From a virus: a stretch of 22,375 bases of DNA. Both the position numbers and the translations under genes were made by a program. A model generated the notes under the pieces. It was not told the origin of the DNA. It made no database searches and worked only from the letters and a program-made list of their open reading frames with translations. Below, in pieces: positions 4,569-22,375 of the stretch (within the stretch, counting starts at the first letter, position 1; every line of letters starts with the position of its first letter). The stretch lies in IMG/VR virus record IMGVR_UViG_3300035220_000374, positions 1-22,375 of that record; one strand, given 5' to 3'.

Positions 4569-4973
4569 ATGAAACTCGATCAATTAAGAAAAGTAATACG
4601 AGAAGAAGTAAGAGCAGCAGTAAAGGAGGAGTTACAGGATGTAATGAATGAAGCGGTTAAACACGCCTCTACTCCAACTAAGATGCAAGAAGTACCTAAA
4701 GGTCAGCCAAAAGTCTGGTCTACAGGTAAATCCTCTACCTTAGACGAAATGCTTAACAAAACCAGATCTGAAATGACTGGTCAAGATTTTAAAAACATAA
4801 CTGGTGCAACAGGCGGTGTACATAAACCTAACTTTGCCTCCTCTATGGCCTCTAATATGGGCTTAACAGAAAATGCAGGGAACATGCCAGGAATAGACAT
4901 AAGTAAGTTAGACTTTGTTAGTAAAGCTAAAAGTGTATACGACGCATCTATGTCTAAAGGTAAACTAAAGTAA
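4569..4973 (+). CDS. Small protein with amphipathic N-terminal helix, unknown
   Basis: This 134-aa protein opens with MKLDQLRKVIREEVRAAVKE, which continues into a long charged amphipathic helix (1-32). A low-complexity Lys/Pro/Ser/Thr/Gln segment follows (about 33-60), and the rest is rich in Met, Asn, Gly and Ser. The first residues recall the MKLS... starts of three other proteins near the right end of the window, and I10-R-E12 fits a T4 prohead-protease-like I-x-E site, though less cleanly. It lies between structural genes, so it is probably a virion or assembly protein. There is no Shine-Dalgarno sequence: the ATG follows a TATTTATATATATG run. Confidence 0.6.
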   Translation: MKLDQLRKVIREEVRAAVKEELQDVMNEAVKHASTPTKMQEVPKGQPKVWSTGKSSTLDEMLNKTRSEMTGQDFKNITGATGGVHKPNFASSMASNMGLTENAGNMPGIDISKLDFVSKAKSVYDASMSKGKLK

Positions 4974-8602: not shown

Positions 8603-11600
8603 TGGCTACGTACACATATAACATATCGGAAATACCCGCAGACTTTATTAACAAGGAGGTGTCTATTAATCAAAGTGATTCTAATTTAATAGAGTCTTTT
8701 GAAATTAATACTCAATTTAATCAATCAAAGCATAGAATTGACTTATTAGTATATTCACTTGATAACGTACTACAAGAACAAAATATAGGATATCAGAGAT
8801 ATAGTCAACTTCTCAACGCAGCAGGAGCCGGTAAAAGCGGAGCTTCTAATATAACTATAAATCCTAAAGAGGATATGTTATCTTTAGGGTATGAGAGCGG
8901 TGATGTTAGGTTACTATATACCTTTACTAATAACCTATTTACGGACGGTATTTTCGGTGGGGACTTATTCATAGAAAAAATATCTCCAGATGGAACAGAA
9001 ATAAGAGCTTTATCCACTAACTTAAAAGATAGTGAACTATTAAAGTATATTGAAGATATAAAATCTAAGTTAAATGACCCTACTCATTTTTCAGAATTTA
9101 AAATAAACTTCGGCAACGATATAAACACAGTAGGGTTAAATATAGATGTAGAGAAAACAGAAAAAGGTATTGCCGCAGTATTTAAACTCTACGAACCACT
9201 CCCTACAGATATTAATATTAACTCAGAGTTCACAGTTGAAGAGGTAATATCCAATAATGTAGCTTTTGAAATTGAGTCTTCTTATATTGAAGATGTAATT
9301 TCTGTAAAAAAATTAAAAGGTCCTAATTTTCAAATAGATCTAGCTGAAGACTCTAGCACATCTACAGAGTTCCTTAACTATAATGAACTTTTTAGCTACC
9401 CTATTAGTAGCTCTAATTTTAAACTACACTCTCTGTTAGGTGAAAAAGGAGCCAGTATTACCGTACAGTACAACGACTATAAAAACTTTATTCACTTTTC
9501 ATCAGCAGAAGAAAGAATAAGAAACTTTCACTATAAGCTAGCTCTTCTTGAATCATACGAGACTAATATAAACACTTTCACAAGTAACTCGATAGACGTA
9601 AACGATTCATCTGGAAGTGTAGTATACTATAATAACCTTATAAAAGGAGTTGTAAATAACTTTGACCATTATGATAGATTTCTTTATTATGGAAGCGGAT
9701 CCAACTCTTGGCCTAAATTAAACTCTAGTAGTCTCTACACTACGACATCCCCTACAGGATCAGACTGGTTCATCGACAATATTGCCTCAGCCTCAGTATA
9801 CGATAATACTAATTATGATATACTTATTAATACTATTCCTACATTTCTAAGAGAAGATAGTAATAACGAGAACTACTTAATGTTTGTTCATATGATTGCT
9901 CAACACTTTGACAACATATGGATATATATGAAAGCAATGTCAGACAGGTATGATAATGACAACAGACTAGACTACGGAATTGCTAAAGACATTGTAAGGA
10001 GTGCTATAGAATCTTACGGTATTAAATTATATAACAGTAATCACAATACAGGTAACTTATTTTCTATGCTAGTTGGAGAGACTCCATCTACCGGAAGTGA
10101 GTTGAATATTCTATCAATGTCAGTAGCTACATCTACCTCTTTTAATAGTGGATCTACAGGACTAGAATATTTACAACCAGTTGCAAAGCTAGACTACGAA
10201 AGAGAGGTACATAAGAGAATATACCATAACCTACCTTACCTTACCCAAACAAAAGGTACAGAGAGAGGTTTAAGAGCACTTATAAACTGTTTCGGTATAC
10301 CTGCAAACATGCTCTCTATTAAACAATACGGAGGAGCAGAAGTAGACTCAGACAGGTACTTTGGACCAGAATACTTTACCTCCTCTAGTGTATCTCAATC
10401 AATCGATACATCAGTTACCACCAGCGCCGAACCTAGCGGATCTACAAGGTATCACATTTCTCCAGCAGGTAAAGTAAGGCTTAATAATACAGGAAGTATT
10501 ATATCAGGTAGTACACTATCTAGGTATGTTTCGACTGTAAAAAATAAGAAAAGGTATTCTGACGATAGCCACCAAGTTCAGGTAGGGTTTAATATTGCAA
10601 GAGGAACTAATGAATTTATAGATTCAAAGGTATCTGGAAGCTTTGATATAGATAACTATATAGGTGATCCAAGAGAAGGTTCTTCTAAAAAGTACGAAAG
10701 TTTAAACTTACTAGGTAGAAATATTACAGATATGTCCTATACATGGGACGATATTTTTACAAAGTGGAATGAAGCAGATTGGGATTGGGATGATGCCTTA
10801 CAGTACGCTAGGAGCCCTAGGTCTTTTATTAGGCTATTAAACTTCTTCGACAGTTCTCTCTTTAGAATGATCAAAGATTTTGTCCCTGCAAGAACTAAAG
10901 TAGATACAGGTATCATAATCGAATCTCATAAACTTGCTAGAAGTAAAGCACAGCAAGTATCAGGAGTACTAAGTAATGAAACTATATCAGGGTCATTAAC
11001 AATTGGTGAACTAACAGGTACATCAGGAGGTTCTTATGAAAGTTCTCAAAGCTTTAACTACACTACTAATTATAGTCAATCTATAATGACACCTAGAGGT
11101 AGAGCTCCAAGGAATGTCACAGATGAAGCACCACAATTTACAGGAGAATTTAGCGGGTCTTTAATGATATCAACTGACGGAGAAGTAGGTAAAAACAATC
11201 CATTTGTAGGATCAGCTCAACCTATACTCACCTTCGACTTAACCTTATTTAACCTCTCCCTACCAATACCCCCAGCATGTATAGTAGCATTATCAGCATC
11301 ATACGTAGGAGAGTATTTTGAATTTTATGCTACAGGGAGTGAAGGTGATGCAATTAGCGGCTCTGTAGAAATGACCTACCCTATAAGTAGAGGCCCCTCT
11401 GTAACTAACCTGAACTTTTCTCACGATTTTGATACTTACGAGTTCTTCACAGTTCAAGCAGAGACTAGTTACTACGGCGGTGAGTTTAACGGATGGTATA
11501 GCGGACCTAATACAGGAAGTACTCTATTCTCTACTTCTTCTACCGTATCTATATATTATGAAGACGAACAAACAAGAGGAAATAAATATTACGCTATTTT

Positions 11601-11609: not shown

Positions 11610-12566
11610 ATGACACTACAAGAATTCATAGCACAGAGACCACAATCTTACGGATCAGGTAACGCAAACCTACTCTACAGTAGTAGTGTATCCGGTTCTG
11701 GAAACACACCAGTACCTCCATTTCACCTACAGGGGTTAACAATCCCCTTCACAAGCCAAGAAGGGACTAATGTCGCAGCAGCATTTAAAGAGCTTACTAA
11801 CATAAATTTTGATTATACTACAGGTACAGTTGAAGCAAAAATTACCGGAAGGCAAAAGAGAAACCAATATTTCTATTTCACTTTTGAAGAAGTAATAGTA
11901 AACCAGCTCCCAACAGAAATAGGAGGAAATCCAATCCACGGTGATAGTGAGTTTGTATTTACACCCTATGTTACTTTAGATTTTAATAATAATGACTACA
12001 ATCCTCTTATTAATAATAGCGAAGGTAGTAAAAGAAACTCAACAGTTCAGAAAGTAGATAGGTTTGCTGATGCAGTTAACCCTACAAATTTGGTAGCCAT
12101 CTTATCTCAATCAGCAGAATCTGCTGAACTACAGAACTGTGCGTATTCTAAGACTGGTTTAATTAGCGGTAGATACAATGGCTCCAAGAATACTGCAGCA
12201 GGATCAACACATCTAGCTAATAAAGCACTGCTTACCAGCTACGTAACATCAAATGCCATTGCCGGTAATAATCCTGCACAAGCATATAAAGTATTTGAAG
12301 GTAGTACACACAGTGATGACGCAGATACTTCAACAATAAAACAGATAAATCAATCTGATAGAAAAATTACTAAAGTGTTTTTTCAATCTGAAATATCTGG
12401 TAGCCATCCTACTAAATCATTTCCTAACTTCCCTAGCTTAACTACCTTAGTTTTTACAGAAGAAGGAAACTCACTGATTAGTTTAGTAAAATCAAAAGTT
12501 TACTCGATTGATAAAGGACAAGTTTTTACAACAAATCAACTAGGCGAAGTAACTTTAGTTGAATAA
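11610..12566 (+). CDS. Putative tail-fibre or virion surface protein, unknown
   Basis: This 318-aa protein is rich in Asn, Ser, Thr and Gly. It opens with TLQEFIAQRPQSYGSGNAN and a Ser/Gly linker (about 27-37). A beta-rich part follows with TGTVEAKITGRQKRNQYFYF, then an Asn-rich loop (about 127-142) and an Ala/Asn/Ser-rich middle. The end reads GQVFTTNQLGEVTLVE. Composition and place, between the large tail protein and the fibre genes, suggest a virion protein exposed on the tail. No known domain is recognised. It begins three bases after the upstream stop (TAAAGATG). The gene is followed by a 42-base AT-rich gap. Confidence 0.55.
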   Translation: MTLQEFIAQRPQSYGSGNANLLYSSSVSGSGNTPVPPFHLQGLTIPFTSQEGTNVAAAFKELTNINFDYTTGTVEAKITGRQKRNQYFYFTFEEVIVNQLPTEIGGNPIHGDSEFVFTPYVTLDFNNNDYNPLINNSEGSKRNSTVQKVDRFADAVNPTNLVAILSQSAESAELQNCAYSKTGLISGRYNGSKNTAAGSTHLANKALLTSYVTSNAIAGNNPAQAYKVFEGSTHSDDADTSTIKQINQSDRKITKVFFQSEISGSHPTKSFPNFPSLTTLVFTEEGNSLISLVKSKVYSIDKGQVFTTNQLGEVTLVE

Positions 12567-17422: not shown

Positions 17423-17917
17423 ATGGAAATGACGAACCCTACCTGGACATACCAAGGTAGATACTTCAACGATATATCAGACTTCCCAGAAGGCACTTAC
17501 GGATTTATATATGAGGTTTTTCATAAACCCTCAGGTCTTAAGTACCTTGGAAAGAAAGTATTGCGATTCGAAAGAAATAAGAGGTTAGGAAAAAGAGCAT
17601 TAGAAGCTCTTAAAGAAGAAAGAAAAGCAAAAGGTATCGGAGGACGTACCCCACTTAAGCAGAAAGTAGTAACTGAATCTGATTGGAAGGAGTACTACGG
17701 TTCCCATCCAAAGATCAAGCAGCTAGTAAAAGATTCAAACGACTTAAGAGCCGATTTTGAAAAAAAAATATTAGATTTAGTTCCAAATAAGAAGCTTCTA
17801 ACATATTATGAGTGCAAACACCTATTTATTAATGACGTCCTTGAGACTTATAGTCATCAATACATCAACGATAACATACTAGGTAAATTTTATAGAAAAG
17901 ACTTTAACAATGATTAG
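17423..17917 (+). CDS. GIY-YIG-like endonuclease
   Basis: This 164-aa protein shows a diverged GIY-YIG nuclease core: GFIYEVFHKPSGLKYLGKK (27-45) supplies the GIY (FIY) and YIG (YLG) strands. A basic segment with RNKRLGKRALEAL follows, then ESDWKEYYGS (85-94), and TYYECKHLF (127-135) where E130 would be the metal-binding glutamate. NDNILGKFYRKDF (149-161) closes the domain. Such free-standing nucleases in T4-like phages are often homing enzymes of the Seg type, but related proteins are widely kept in marine T4-like phages and may be ordinary phage genes. No second DNA-binding domain is evident. Two in-frame ATGs (17423 and 17429) are possible; the first is chosen for its extra two codons only. 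The 3' end overlaps the next gene by eight bases. Confidence 0.7.
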   Translation: MEMTNPTWTYQGRYFNDISDFPEGTYGFIYEVFHKPSGLKYLGKKVLRFERNKRLGKRALEALKEERKAKGIGGRTPLKQKVVTESDWKEYYGSHPKIKQLVKDSNDLRADFEKKILDLVPNKKLLTYYECKHLFINDVLETYSHQYINDNILGKFYRKDFNND

Positions 17918-18802: not shown

Positions 18803-19052
18803 CGAACATATAGTAGACGACTATACCTTAAGAGAGTTCTCTCAAGATACTCCTACATTTGAATTTGTATGGCATAGAGATAGAGAAGATCGAATAGTTC
18901 AAGCTACACATGATACAGATTGGTTATTTCAATTAGATAATGAGTTACCACAAGGATTATCAGAAAACAAACTATTTATACCCAAAGAGACATATCACCG
19001 TTTAATAAAAGGAACTGGTGATTTAGTTATTAAAATATGGCACAAGGATTAA
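18789..19052 (+). CDS. Cupin-like small protein
   Basis: This 87-aa protein carries WHRDREDRIVQA (28-39), TDWLFQLDNELPQGL (43-57) and LFIPKETYHRLIKG (62-75). The last part fits cupin motif 2 (P65, H70 five residues on), with E67 in place of the usual Gly. H29 and D31 stand where motif 1 has its histidines. It would be a single minimal cupin barrel. I recall proteins with the same HRDREDR and 'IP-ET-HR' pattern in other marine T4-like phages, labelled hypothetical. Cupins bind metals, sugars or small acids; the ligand is unknown here. It overlaps the zinc-ribbon gene by 14 bases and the following basic gene by 16. Confidence 0.65.
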   Translation: MLPYNEHIVDDYTLREFSQDTPTFEFVWHRDREDRIVQATHDTDWLFQLDNELPQGLSENKLFIPKETYHRLIKGTGDLVIKIWHKD

Positions 19053-19174
19053 CTTTAGGTAGCTACGCAGGTGGCACTAAAAAAAAGAGACCAGGCATAC
19101 ATGCTAAGTCTAAAACATCAAAGCTGAAAAATAGTAAACACTATCAGAAAGCTTATAGAGGACAAGGAAAATGA
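19037..19174 (+). CDS. Very basic small protein (45 aa)
   Basis: This gene encodes 45 residues, MAQGLTLGSYAGG then TKKKRPGIHAKSKTSKLKNS (14-33) and HYQKAYRGQGK at the end. About a third of the residues are Lys, Arg or His and there is almost no acid. The 'KRPG-HAK-K-SK-K-SK-Y-K-YRGQG' pattern is familiar from short proteins in many marine T4-like phages, which argues that it is real. It overlaps the upstream gene by 16 bases and joins the next by ATGA. It probably binds nucleic acid; whether it is packaged in the head or acts on ribosomes or DNA in the cell is unknown. Confidence 0.75.
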   Translation: MAQGLTLGSYAGGTKKKRPGIHAKSKTSKLKNSKHYQKAYRGQGK

Positions 19175-19488
19175 AATTAAGTCAAATTATATTAGAAGAC
19201 GATCACTGGAGTAAGTTTACAGCTAAATCTCAAGAAATTGAAAATGAGATGAAAGACGTATACAACCGTGATGATATTCGAGTTTCAATTATACAACACT
19301 CTAATGGTGATAAAGCTATGGGAAAAGTTACTATTGTAACCCCAGACCAATTACTACCATCAGAGTATCAAAATATGAGAAATTACCTAGAGGCTAAAGA
19401 CTACGAGGTTACTGGCGGTATGAATTTTGCGGAAACTGACGATGATCGTCGAGTGTACCCTGACATTAAATTTGAATTTGAAATATGA
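19171..19488 (+). CDS. Small protein with candidate capsid-targeting N-terminus (MKLSQIILE)
   Basis: This 105-aa acidic alpha/beta protein has no known domain. Its first nine residues, MKLSQIILE, match the next gene (MKLSKIILE) and the last gene in the window (MKLSTLIL, cut off). In T4, internal head proteins carry a short N-terminal capsid-targeting peptide (MKTYQEFIAE) cut by the gp21 prohead protease after an (I/L)-x-E site. Here I7-L8-E9 gives the same type of site, so this may be packaged and ejected into the host; this is inference. Unlike most starts in the window, it is preceded by AAGGA, a weak Shine-Dalgarno sequence. The remainder has YQNMRNYLEAKDYEVTGGMN and a charged C-terminus ending FEFEI. 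Confidence 0.7.
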   Translation: MKLSQIILEDDHWSKFTAKSQEIENEMKDVYNRDDIRVSIIQHSNGDKAMGKVTIVTPDQLLPSEYQNMRNYLEAKDYEVTGGMNFAETDDDRRVYPDIKFEFEI

Positions 19489-19679
19489 AACTATCTAAAA
19501 TCATATTAGAAAATAAAGAGGTAATAGAAAAAACTCAATTAGAATTTACTTCTTCAGACATCGATAAGTTAACTGAAGCAATTACTTCTAAACTAGAAGA
19601 ATATTTAGACACAGGTAATCAAGAACTGATAAGAAAATCAGTTGCTTCTGCTATTAACGAAATAGTTTCTAAAGACTAA
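19485..19679 (+). CDS. Small helical protein with candidate capsid-targeting N-terminus (MKLSKIILE)
   Basis: This 64-aa protein starts MKLSKIILENKE, differing from the preceding gene only at residue 5 over the first nine. After the possible I-L-E cleavage site it is a short, almost wholly helical charged protein (FTSSDIDKLTEAITSKLEEY, then LIRKSVASAINEIVSKD). The two genes overlap by four bases (ATGA). Sequence after residue 9 is unrelated, so the shared start acts as a tag on different cargo and is not a sign of whole-gene duplication. Function is unknown. Confidence 0.7.
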   Translation: MKLSKIILENKEVIEKTQLEFTSSDIDKLTEAITSKLEEYLDTGNQELIRKSVASAINEIVSKD

Positions 19680-19734
19680 GTTGGTTATTAAGTAAAAAGT
19701 TCTTATCTTATTAATTAAGAAACGGACTGGTTTT
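19680..19734. other. Intergenic gap before the primase
   Basis: This 55-base AT-rich gap is the longest inside the gene run. It contains a weak five-base stem (TCTTA-TTAAT-TAAGA) and ends CGGACTGGTTTT before the ATG. No TATAAATA octamer is present. It may separate the small-gene block from the replication genes, but I cannot call a promoter or terminator. Confidence 0.3.
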
Positions 19735-20658
19735 ATGGATTATACTTTCCTTTTAGGATCCATTGAGAATATTTTAGGTAAGAGTAATAAGAGAGCAAGA
19801 GATAACTATGCTTTTCATTGCCCATTTTGCAATCATCGCAAACCTAAACTAGAGATCAATATGCACACAACCGAAGAAGGTAAAAACTTCTGGGAATGTT
19901 GGGTATGTCAAACTAGAGGACAGTCTATAAGGTCCCTACTCAAGCAATTAAATACTCCAAAAGATAAAGCATCCGAAATACTTAAGTACTTACCGAAAGG
20001 TTCTTATAAAGAGTACACTGGACTATCTATAGTAGAGATACCCAAAGAATTTCAACCTCTATATTTAGCATCATCAGAATCTTATGTAGCTAATATGGTT
20101 AAAAAATACCTATATGAACGAGGACTTAACGATAATGATTTTATTAAATATGGCGTTGGATACGCAACAACTGGTGCATATGGAGGACGAGTTATTATCC
20201 CAAGTTATTCTGAATCCAATCAACTCAACTTTTTTGTTGCAAGAACATATGATGGAAATTATTTTAAGTACAAAAACCCCGAAACTTCCAAAGACATAAT
20301 ATTTTTTGAAAATTTAATTAACTGGAACCAACCTATTATATTATGTGAGGGTGTGTTTGATGCTATGTCTATTAGGAGAAATGCAGTTCCTATACTTGGA
20401 AAAAGTATTTCAACCTCACTTTATAAGAAAATAATTACTAGCAAAGTAAAAGATATATACGTAGCATTGGATACTGATGCACGTGATAGAGCACTCGAAA
20501 TAGGAGAAAAATTTTTAAACCAAGGTAAAAGAGTCTTTCTAGTAGACTTACCAGACAAAGATCCATCTGAAATGGGATTTAGGGCTTTTACCGAACATAT
20601 TCAAACAGCAGAAGAGTTAGACCTACCAGGGATAATGATGCACAAACTCAACCTATGA
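19735..20658 (+). CDS. gp61: DNA primase (T4 gp61/DnaG-type)
   Basis: This 307-aa protein has an N-terminal zinc-binding domain with HCPFCNH (28-34) and ECWVC (54-58), the four cysteines C29, C32, C55 and C58 being the likely ligands. A TOPRIM catalytic core follows: ILCEGVFDAMS (202-212) with E205, and VALDTDARDRA (243-253) with D246 and D248, then LPDKDPSEMG (272-281). It makes RNA primers for lagging-strand synthesis and works with the gp41-type helicase (not in this window). T4 gp61 is 342 aa, so the size fits. The C-terminal helicase-contact domain seems short. It overlaps the nuclease gene by four bases (ATGA), pointing to a shared role in DNA replication. Confidence 0.88.
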   Translation: MDYTFLLGSIENILGKSNKRARDNYAFHCPFCNHRKPKLEINMHTTEEGKNFWECWVCQTRGQSIRSLLKQLNTPKDKASEILKYLPKGSYKEYTGLSIVEIPKEFQPLYLASSESYVANMVKKYLYERGLNDNDFIKYGVGYATTGAYGGRVIIPSYSESNQLNFFVARTYDGNYFKYKNPETSKDIIFFENLINWNQPIILCEGVFDAMSIRRNAVPILGKSISTSLYKKIITSKVKDIYVALDTDARDRALEIGEKFLNQGKRVFLVDLPDKDPSEMGFRAFTEHIQTAEELDLPGIMMHKLNL

Positions 20659-21437
20659 TTAAACAAGGTATGAACATTCTCGAACAAAACGAGAAAAAAA
20701 GATTAGACTTCAACCCAGACTTAAAGCAAATAAATTTTCTGGACCGAAGAGTATACAAGAGAGGCGAAGGAGTATTTTACCCGTCCGTAACTACAATACT
20801 CCAATATATGCCCAAGAATAAGTTCTTCGAATCATGGATGAAGGACGTTGGGCATAACGCTGATCTTATTATGCGCAGAGCAGGTAAGCAAGGTACACAG
20901 GTGCATGAAGCAGCTGAGAAGTTGGTCTTAGGTGAAGAAGTCTCCTGGATGGATAATTACGGCAATGCAAAGTACTCTCAAATAGTATGGGAGATGATTT
21001 TAAAGTTTGCTGACTTTTGGAAAACTCATAAACCAGAACTTATATATGCTGAAGACTTTGTTTGGTCGGACGAACATAAGTATGCAGGAACAGCTGATTT
21101 AGTAGTTAAAATGAATGATGAAGTTTGGCTATTAGATATTAAAACATCAAACAGTGTACATAAATCATTTGATCTTCAATTAGCTTCATATGCTAAAGCC
21201 TTAGAAGAGTCTAAAGGTATTAAAATACAACGTACAGGTATAATTTGGTTGAAAGCACAATCAAGAGGTCCTTCAAAACAGAAGAATGTAATACAAGGTA
21301 AAGGATGGAAAGTATTACAGATAGATGATATAGAAGAGAATTTTGAATTATTTAAGATGATATACAAATTGTATTCTCTTGAGAACCCTAATACAGAACC
21401 TATTTATAATAGCTACCCTACTACAATAAAACTATAG
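20655..21437 (+). CDS. PD-(D/E)XK exonuclease (RecB/Cas4-like)
   Basis: This 260-aa protein shows the RecB-family nuclease motifs: GTQVHEAAEKL (80-90) with H84; AEDFVW (132-137) with E133; YAGTADLVV (143-151) with D148; WLLDIKTS (158-165) with D161 and K163; and DLQLASYAKA (173-182) with Q175. These are the metal-binding and catalytic residues of such exonucleases. It lacks helicase motifs and any four-cysteine iron-sulphur cluster like that of Cas4 or AddB. The ATGA overlap with the primase gene ties it to replication or recombination; host DNA breakdown is another option. A second ATG six codons in (MNILEQ) is a possible alternative start. Confidence 0.85.
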   Translation: MIKQGMNILEQNEKKRLDFNPDLKQINFLDRRVYKRGEGVFYPSVTTILQYMPKNKFFESWMKDVGHNADLIMRRAGKQGTQVHEAAEKLVLGEEVSWMDNYGNAKYSQIVWEMILKFADFWKTHKPELIYAEDFVWSDEHKYAGTADLVVKMNDEVWLLDIKTSNSVHKSFDLQLASYAKALEESKGIKIQRTGIIWLKAQSRGPSKQKNVIQGKGWKVLQIDDIEENFELFKMIYKLYSLENPNTEPIYNSYPTTIKL

Positions 21438-21440
21438 AGT

Positions 21441-22352
21441 ATGAAGAAATTATTACTAACCTTAACAGTGCTTATCTTAATAGGCTGTTCTACTTTTAAA
21501 CTCTCAACTCATAATTATGATCCTATATACGGACCATCAGGAAATAAAATTGAAGTAGATATAATTAGCACACAGTGGGATTTAAACAGCAAGTTACAAA
21601 ATGATTTTCAGTTTAGGTACGATTTTGCCCAATATGCAATGAATCAACCCTACGGATGGTACTTTCAGCACAGAACATTTAATAACTTCAGGTGGAATAG
21701 AATTAATCCTTACTCCACCTATGATATGTACTTCAATAGAGGTAATTTTTGGATGGATTGGGCATTTGGATTTCCTTTTAATAATAGTTGGAATAATTTC
21801 GGCTGGAGTAACTGGGGCTTTAATAATTGGAATAATAACTACTATGGTTATAATATGTGGGGATACAACACTGGAGTAAATAATTTTCACTGGCAAAATA
21901 GAAATAGAGATAATAGAAGGGTGTCTTATAGCGCAGGTAGGAGAGGCTCTAATACTATTAATAGAAATCCAATTAAAAGTAATACAACTAAAAATAATGG
22001 AATTACTATTAGAACTAATGTTCCTAGAAATCCTAGAACTAGTACTGCTGGGAATACATTAAATATTGATAATGCAGTAGAAATTATAAGAAAAGAAAAT
22101 AAAAGAAGACAAATTAGAGTATATACAAACCCTAATAATATACCTAATGTAATTATTAGAGGGAATAGAAATAACAACAATATAAGTAAACCAGTTATAC
22201 CAAATAGAGGTTCATGGAGATCTAATAGTAATCCTAGACCTGTTATTAGAAGCAATAGTCCTATAAGAAGTAACACATCAACATCTAATTCACCTAGAAG
22301 TAGTTCAAGCAGAAGTAATAACAAAGGTGGAAGAGGCAATATTAATAACTAA
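21441..22352 (+). CDS. Phage-encoded lipoprotein, Asn/aromatic-rich
   Basis: This 303-aa protein starts MKKLLLTLTVLILIGC, a type II (lipoprotein) signal with lipobox LIGC, so C16 should be lipidated and the protein held in a membrane, most likely the outer one. Residues 17-70 form a mixed domain (YDPIYGPSGNKIEVDIISTQ). Residues 71-152 are dense in Trp, Tyr, Phe, Asn and Gly (for example GWSNWGFNNWNNNYYGYNMW). Residues 153-303 are a basic low-complexity Asn/Arg/Ser/Pro tail, probably disordered. No homologue with known function is recognised. Phage lipoproteins often block receptors against superinfection (as T5 Llp does), but acquisition from a host surface-protein gene or a virion role is possible. 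It lies three bases after the nuclease gene and overlaps the next ATG by one base. Confidence 0.7.
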   Translation: MKKLLLTLTVLILIGCSTFKLSTHNYDPIYGPSGNKIEVDIISTQWDLNSKLQNDFQFRYDFAQYAMNQPYGWYFQHRTFNNFRWNRINPYSTYDMYFNRGNFWMDWAFGFPFNNSWNNFGWSNWGFNNWNNNYYGYNMWGYNTGVNNFHWQNRNRDNRRVSYSAGRRGSNTINRNPIKSNTTKNNGITIRTNVPRNPRTSTAGNTLNIDNAVEIIRKENKRRQIRVYTNPNNIPNVIIRGNRNNNNISKPVIPNRGSWRSNSNPRPVIRSNSPIRSNTSTSNSPRSSSSRSNNKGGRGNINN

Positions 22353-22375
22353 TGAAACTATCAACATTAATCCTA
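22352..22375 (+). CDS. Start of another MKLS-type gene, cut by the window end
   Basis: Only eight codons are visible: MKLSTLIL. The ATG shares its first base with the upstream stop (TAATG), the same coupling seen elsewhere. The residues match the MKLSxIIL(E) start of the genes at 19171 and 19485, and a Glu at position 9 is predicted. Nothing more can be said about its product. Confidence 0.6.

Follow-up and report, generated by a model that had tools for sequence, protein, structure and literature searches.

A short leader shared by unrelated proteins of T4-like phages as a candidate capsid-targeting sequence

Introduction

The internal proteins of phage T4 (IPI to IPIII) carry a capsid-targeting sequence (CTS), a leader of about 10 residues that starts with MK, is common to differing bodies, and in IPII and IPIII ends in [L/I]-x-E. 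In the passages of PMC9026906 that concern T4, the protease gp21 cuts after L/I-X-E, packaging of IPIII needs only its first ten residues, and leader fusions carry foreign proteins in; targeting maps to residues 4 and 7 of the IPIII leader and processing to residues 8 and 10, with D at position 10 blocking processing. Here, we describe MKLSxIILE, a leader that opens three genes in a 22,375-base virus record (IMG/VR IMGVR_UViG_3300035220_000374; "the window" refers to this whole stretch) and recurs on unrelated proteins in contigs of related, uncultured phages. We put the probability that MKLSxIILE is a T4-type capsid-targeting, protease-cleaved leader at roughly three in four, on the basis of the sequence comparisons below.

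Other described systems also invite comparison. The inner head and ejection proteins of phages phiKZ and SPN3US also have leaders that a prohead protease removes; however, the SPN3US propeptides are mostly longer than 100 residues (two have 20 and 24), the giant phage motif is A-x-E or S/A-x-E, and no common short tag appears in the passages concerned (PMC5694885, PMC10052503, PMC9026906). Within T4, the start of gp24 (MAKINELLRES) can be aligned by eye over 8 residues, K-I-N-E-L-L-R-E with K-L-S-K-I-I-L-E, but gp24 and gp23 are shell proteins, whereas the leader described here is on nonshell proteins. The nearest record in the phage collection, judged by primase (62%), is the Flavobacterium phage immuto (Immutovirus), which is annotated as encoding gp20, a prohead core serine protease, and gp23; its host is the aquatic strain Flavobacterium sp. 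LMO8, and its source is a Baltic Sea mesocosm. We found no account of an MKLS-type leader in the literature searched, which lacked most subscription papers.

Results and Discussion

Occurrence of the leader

Judged by the genes it encodes (those for a baseplate wedge protein, tail-fibre-type proteins, a phrog_447 member, DNA primase, and exonuclease), the window is a portion of a T4-like phage genome. MKLSQIILED... opens an open reading frame (ORF) at 19171-19488 (+ strand; 105 aa; here P0001), with the leader at 19171..19197, a predicted head-targeting peptide with a predicted cut after E9 (I7-L8-E9), and the body at 19198..19488. MKLSKIILEN... opens the next ORF at 19485-19679 (+; 64 aa; P0002), in which the leader (19485..19511) has its own ATG overlapping the stop of the first gene (ATGA) and the body occupies 19512..19679. 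A third ATG at 22352 (+) encodes MKLSTLIL up to the window end (22352..22375). All three starts had been pointed out in a first-pass annotation of the window, and all are present. The third is completed in contig L037, which is 95.7% identical to window positions 19171-22375 and holds a closed 308-aa ORF with MKLSTLILE (MKLSTLILEARDKPKLVIMA... / MKLSTLILEARDKPK...); therefore, the third start belongs to a real tagged gene.

The leader is portable: it is common to unrelated bodies, is conserved as a peptide, is predicted to be unfolded, is separable from what follows, has the gp21 motif at its end, and is found on protease-encoding contigs. The first-pass annotation had proposed a portable tag and a search of relatives for further MKLS starts. 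That search returned 171 distinct proteins with the strict leader, and comparison of their bodies after residue 10 (blastp, E < 1e-3) resolved 15 families with nothing detectable in common beyond that residue, so the idea of a tag on unrelated proteins stands. P0001 and P0002 fall into separate families; a zeta-like P-loop protein and several proteins of unknown kind make up others, and three of the 15 consist of one protein each and two of a pair. With a looser leader pattern, 221 proteins were sorted into 18 groups; because its loose linking appears to have fused distinct families, the strict set was used.

The leader is more frequent than chance would predict. A scan of viral contigs with a tag pattern (M, K, L/F, S/T/R/C/W, x, I, I, L/F, E) returned at least 135 matches in at least 119 stretches, and 128 of the 135 listed open an ORF of ≥45 codons or run off the contig. 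In contrast, a control with the same residues scrambled, scanned completely over the same contigs, gave 14 matches, of which 3 were open. An independent-site model built on 1222 untagged N-termini predicted 0.009 strict tags among 1267 genes, whereas the observed number was 27, from 8 families; this count is biased upward because most records were fetched as tag bearing. A de novo comparison of N-termini (190 family pairs at ≥6/9 versus 14 at offset 9) was inflated by the start methionine and signal peptides and was not relied on.

Properties of the leader peptide

Across family consensuses, information fell from 3.6 to 4.3 bits at positions 6 to 9 to 1.4 bits at residue 10; positions 1 to 4 and 6 to 9 are constrained by the regular expression used for selection, but the drop at residue 10 is unbiased by it. 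M1, K2, L3, S4, and E9 were invariant in the P0001 alignment (25 sequences), with indels and a length-variable linker immediately past E9. In the P0002 alignment (26 sequences), for which the tag itself was one search pattern, M1 to K5, I7, L8, and E9 were invariant. When P0001 loci were found by patterns from residue 9 onward, 14 of 15 began with MKLSxI[IL][LF]E. The fifteenth (L131) begins with MKLLNILTE, followed by approximately 46 extra residues and a second site, LNE, ahead of the body; this ortholog (L131:9830-10294) resembles two cargo pieces behind a single leader.

In AlphaFold2 models, residues 1 to 13 of P0001 (25 sequences) had a predicted local distance difference test score (pLDDT) below 50, compared to blocks above 80 over residues 21 to 105; in P0002, residues 1 to 5 were below 50 and residues 11 to 20 averaged 55. 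A complete Fe/Mn superoxide dismutase (SOD) carries the leader in two records (PF02777, 8.5e-35). Its domain starts at residue 12 or 13; of the 60 solved SOD chains among the matches listed, 52 align from their own residue 2 to 5, indicating that the leader is a peptide added before a whole enzyme. Judged from low pLDDT in the models, the variable linker past E9, and this intact domain, the leader is separable from the folded body. High conservation together with no predicted fold suggests a docking or processing peptide.

Predicted cut site, prohead protease, and genomic position

I7-x-E9 of the leader fits the gp21 motif [L/I]-x-E, although in the strict set this ending is partly imposed by the regular expression. 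In four families with varied leaders, [L/I]-x-E was found at the junction of leader and body in 35 of 38 members: 11/12 for a nucleotidase (D in G013), 9/9 for the zeta-like protein, 9/11 for a family of ~100 aa (one exception has V-x-E and one has no leader as called), and 6/6 for a kinase-like protein. These junctions were judged by eye in families picked for their leader variety, with the near-duplicates G025/G027 and G028/G032 counted apart. The major capsid proteins (MCPs) of the clade start with ME[IL][NK]xL[LF]E and contain ILEN; 12 MCP propeptides hold ME[IL][NK]xL[LF]E, GLLE, and ILEN, 9 of which were picked by these motifs, the others being G004, G006, and G018 (G004 and G006 confirmed by homology).

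The first-pass annotation had also called for a search for a gp21-type prohead protease, and the gene is present in relatives. The immuto protease, used as the query, detected a gp21 homolog in 15 of the 34 records drawn from tag or P0002 loci; 13 of the homologs are nearly full length, with 72 to 78% identity, and 2 are pieces at contig edges. G004 and G018 carry orthologs of P0001, P0002, and the zeta-like protein together with the protease on one contig. Like T4, the MKLS clade encodes a gp21-type protease.

Leaders concentrate near head genes. The family of the phrog_447 gene ("NAD synthetase" in PHROGs; 17423..17917, + in the window) served as one border of the leader-rich region in relatives. 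We compared the stretch from phrog_447 to the neck genes with the rest of each record for genes with [ILV]xE, E being at residues 7 to 13; since the regions were set after gene lists were seen, the P values are descriptive. Such leaders were enriched inside the region in immuto (19/34 versus 20/181 elsewhere; P = 3.5e-8), G001 (16/34 versus 21/188; P = 4.5e-6), G021 (17/33 versus 2/28; P = 1.6e-4), G025 (12/34 versus 16/122; P = 0.005), and G027 (12/30 versus 3/29; P = 0.009). In a shifted-window control (three windows in each of the five records), 1 of 15 comparisons reached P < 0.05 (immuto 21-27, 0.033). MKLS-like leaders in large records fell inside the region in 5/5 cases in G001 and 4/4 in G025, and in G023, two lie by head genes and one outside. 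The T4 IP genes are ~30 to 38 kb from gene 21.

Interpretation and alternatives

The best account of these sequence-level observations is that the leader works like the T4 CTS, a parallel that passes the tests run. As the prohead core forms, the leader would bind the scaffold or another core protein and carry the attached protein inside. The gp21-type prohead protease would then cut after [L/I]-x-E (I7-L8-E9), freeing the body within the head while the leader leaves, and the bodies would remain with the DNA and probably pass into the next host along with it. The two systems also differ. The leader is MKTYQEFIAE in T4 versus MKLSxIILE here, T4 has three internal proteins versus at least 15 families here, and most bodies here are net negative, with an SOD and a zeta-like P-loop protein among the candidate cargo.

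Several observations weigh against a T4-type leader. The protease match was absent on 19 of the 34 records, including G002 (113 kb), G003 (94 kb), and G024 (125 kb); G026, another protease-negative record of >90 kb, has a chance match to the tag pattern only. Twelve of these 19 were checked for the major capsid gene and none matched, whereas the controls G004 and G006 did, suggesting that these 12 contigs probably lack the head region. The 22-kb window holds no head genes or protease, and both it and L037 end short of that region. Net charge was negative in 12 of 15 family means and the isoelectric point (pI) was <6 in 8 of 15, compared to body pIs of 7.9, 9.6, and 9.7 for T4 IPI, IPII, and IPIII (IPII and IPIII are basic); small basic bodies related to IPI to IPIII were not seen among the tagged families. 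In G023, one tagged gene (8845-9369; 174 aa; MKLTRILLE) lies outside the head cluster, surrounded by small genes. The regional P values carry the limit given above, the P0001 body may have a role in the neck (see below), and virion proteomics or cleavage data for the clade were not found. The T4 parallel drawn in the first-pass annotation is partly supported: the protease, the kept [L/I]-x-E junction, the conserved leader that is predicted to be unfolded, and the clustering with head genes speak for it, whereas the net-negative bodies, the tail-terminator-like model of P0001, and the outlier in G023 speak against a simple analogy with the T4 internal proteins.

Alternatively, the leader could be an uncut docking peptide for assembly of the prohead core, neck, or tail, with the tagged proteins being assembly factors or minor structural parts. 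In fold comparisons, the P0001 model resembles tail terminators (lambda gpU, T4 gp15, and pyocin and diffocin collars) well up the match list, although the resemblance is weak (Z of 4.8 to 7.8) and values of <8 may reflect merely a common arrangement; given this fold, the P0001 body may act in the neck. A tagged ~100-aa family lies in the stretch past the MCP gene, and in five records (G010, G021, G023, G028, and G032) the gene immediately after that of the protease is a tagged one. However, Foldseek returned no PDB or viral-model match for P0001 at E 0.001, and the P0001 family was not found in G006, G010, G021, G025, G027, G028, or immuto, which argues that it is not a core part. In addition, the glutamate kept at the junction fits a protease site, and, to our knowledge, no phage uses an SOD or a zeta-like P-loop protein as an assembly part. 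Together, these points make an uncut docking peptide unlikely.

We consider it less likely still that the leader sends proteins elsewhere in the infected cell, such as the inner membrane or a replication or translation complex, in a manner unrelated to the head. The leader is short with a hydrophobic IIL, and the outlying tagged gene in G023 would suit such a role. However, [ILV]xE leaders concentrate by head genes in all five records tested, no MKLS leader was found on primase, portal, or scaffold, and the sharp end of the leader at E9 matches the gp21 motif.

Finally, it is very improbable that the shared start is a by-product of translational coupling through ATGA overlaps or of recombination spreading one gene start. 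In favor of this view, ATGA occurs at all 171 strict starts, which follows from their encoding M-K, and across families the codons at positions 7 and 8 agree more often than pooled usage predicts (0.60 versus 0.40 and 0.53 versus 0.39). Against it, codons at positions 2, 3, 4, 6, and 9 show no such excess (L3, 0.32 versus 0.39; S4, 0.23 versus 0.30), the leader serine has codons of both the TCN and the AGY type, E9 is held though the DNA level seems not to require it, and the scrambled pattern had 3 open starts against at least 128 for the tag.

Tagged bodies as candidate cargo

If MKLSxIILE is a T4-type targeting leader, the cargo encoded in the window would comprise a 96-residue alpha/beta body (P0001), a 55-residue mostly helical body (P0002), and a zeta-toxin-like P-loop protein. 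P0001 is modeled as a small alpha/beta fold and P0002 as a strand plus two helices; neither matched any protein family, PHROGs included, at E 0.001. P0002 also matched nothing in the annotated phage collection, and its model had no PDB fold match at E 0.001. The third gene product, as completed in L037, is zeta-toxin-like by its Pfam match (Zeta_toxin PF06414, 33.7 bits against a cutoff of 22.3, E 3.2e-8, residues 10 to 125); no PDB sequence match was found at E 0.1. Its ortholog in the pelagiphage HTVC008M (28.7% identity over 144 residues) starts with MIPFILKEG, with L-x-E ahead of the body. At that locus (L286; HTVC008M 106562-111718), the zeta-like P-loop, nucleotidyltransferase-like, and 5'-nucleotidase-like genes are ordered as in L037, the last two being assigned by eye. 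A tagged family of 143 aa has a weak match to a T7-type protein kinase (phrog_15752, E 4e-4).

Some of the tagged bodies have orthologs in immuto that carry [L/I]xE leaders, but we could find no MKLS-type leader there; other leaders are repeated instead (FDLKKFLVENKL..., MKKSQLRxIIKEAL). On differing proteins at immuto loci L197 to L200, FDLKKFLVENKLTxNSKILKE recurs at least 4 times and MKKSQLRxIIKEAL-like starts at least 4 times. Forms of the former were also seen in G001, G004, G006, G027, and G028.

These observations can be extended, with slightly less than an even chance of being right, to an open head-cargo pathway in which MKLSxIILE proteins are loaded into the head, freed by the protease, and injected, delivering a changing set of ready-made enzymes that act on the host ahead of all phage gene expression; the repeated leaders of immuto would then be parallel targeting codes of related phages. 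The enzymes delivered would include the SOD, the zeta-like kinase, a 5'-nucleotidase that has an [L/I]xE leader of its own, and the kinase-like small protein. An anti-defence role for the tagged proteins is a possibility.

If the T4-type reading is true, head cargo becomes readable from sequence alone, since the leader marks virion-internal and probably injected proteins, a class that is otherwise hard to find. The T4 internal-protein principle would then extend beyond the T-even phages and have known enzymes among its cargo, and the function of internal head proteins would become testable on at least 15 new families. The leader might also serve to load chosen proteins into the heads of this phage group, whose nearest isolate infects Flavobacterium.

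Other features of the window

Two further genes had been considered as carriers of related leaders. The gene at 4569 (MKLDQLRKVIREEVRAAVKEEL), suggested in the first-pass annotation as a looser member, is conserved and lies immediately upstream of the baseplate wedge gene; in its immuto counterpart, gp114, helical sequence runs on beyond the supposed tag, and the case for its membership is not convincing. The gene at 11610 (MTLQEFIAQ...) resembles T4 QEFIAE by eye; it was dropped because the residue is not E here and is not kept in relatives.

Downstream of P0002, the DNA primase (19735..20658, +) and exonuclease (20655..21437, +) genes have no MKLS leader. Directly ahead of P0001, positions 19037-19174 encode a very basic 45-aa protein closely matched by immuto gp085 (HAKSKTSKLK...YRGQGK). 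The product of the gene at 21441-22352 begins like a lipoprotein (LILIGC) and continues with a long stretch rich in Asn, Arg, and Ser; the gene lies between the exonuclease and zeta-like genes in G001 and L037 as well.

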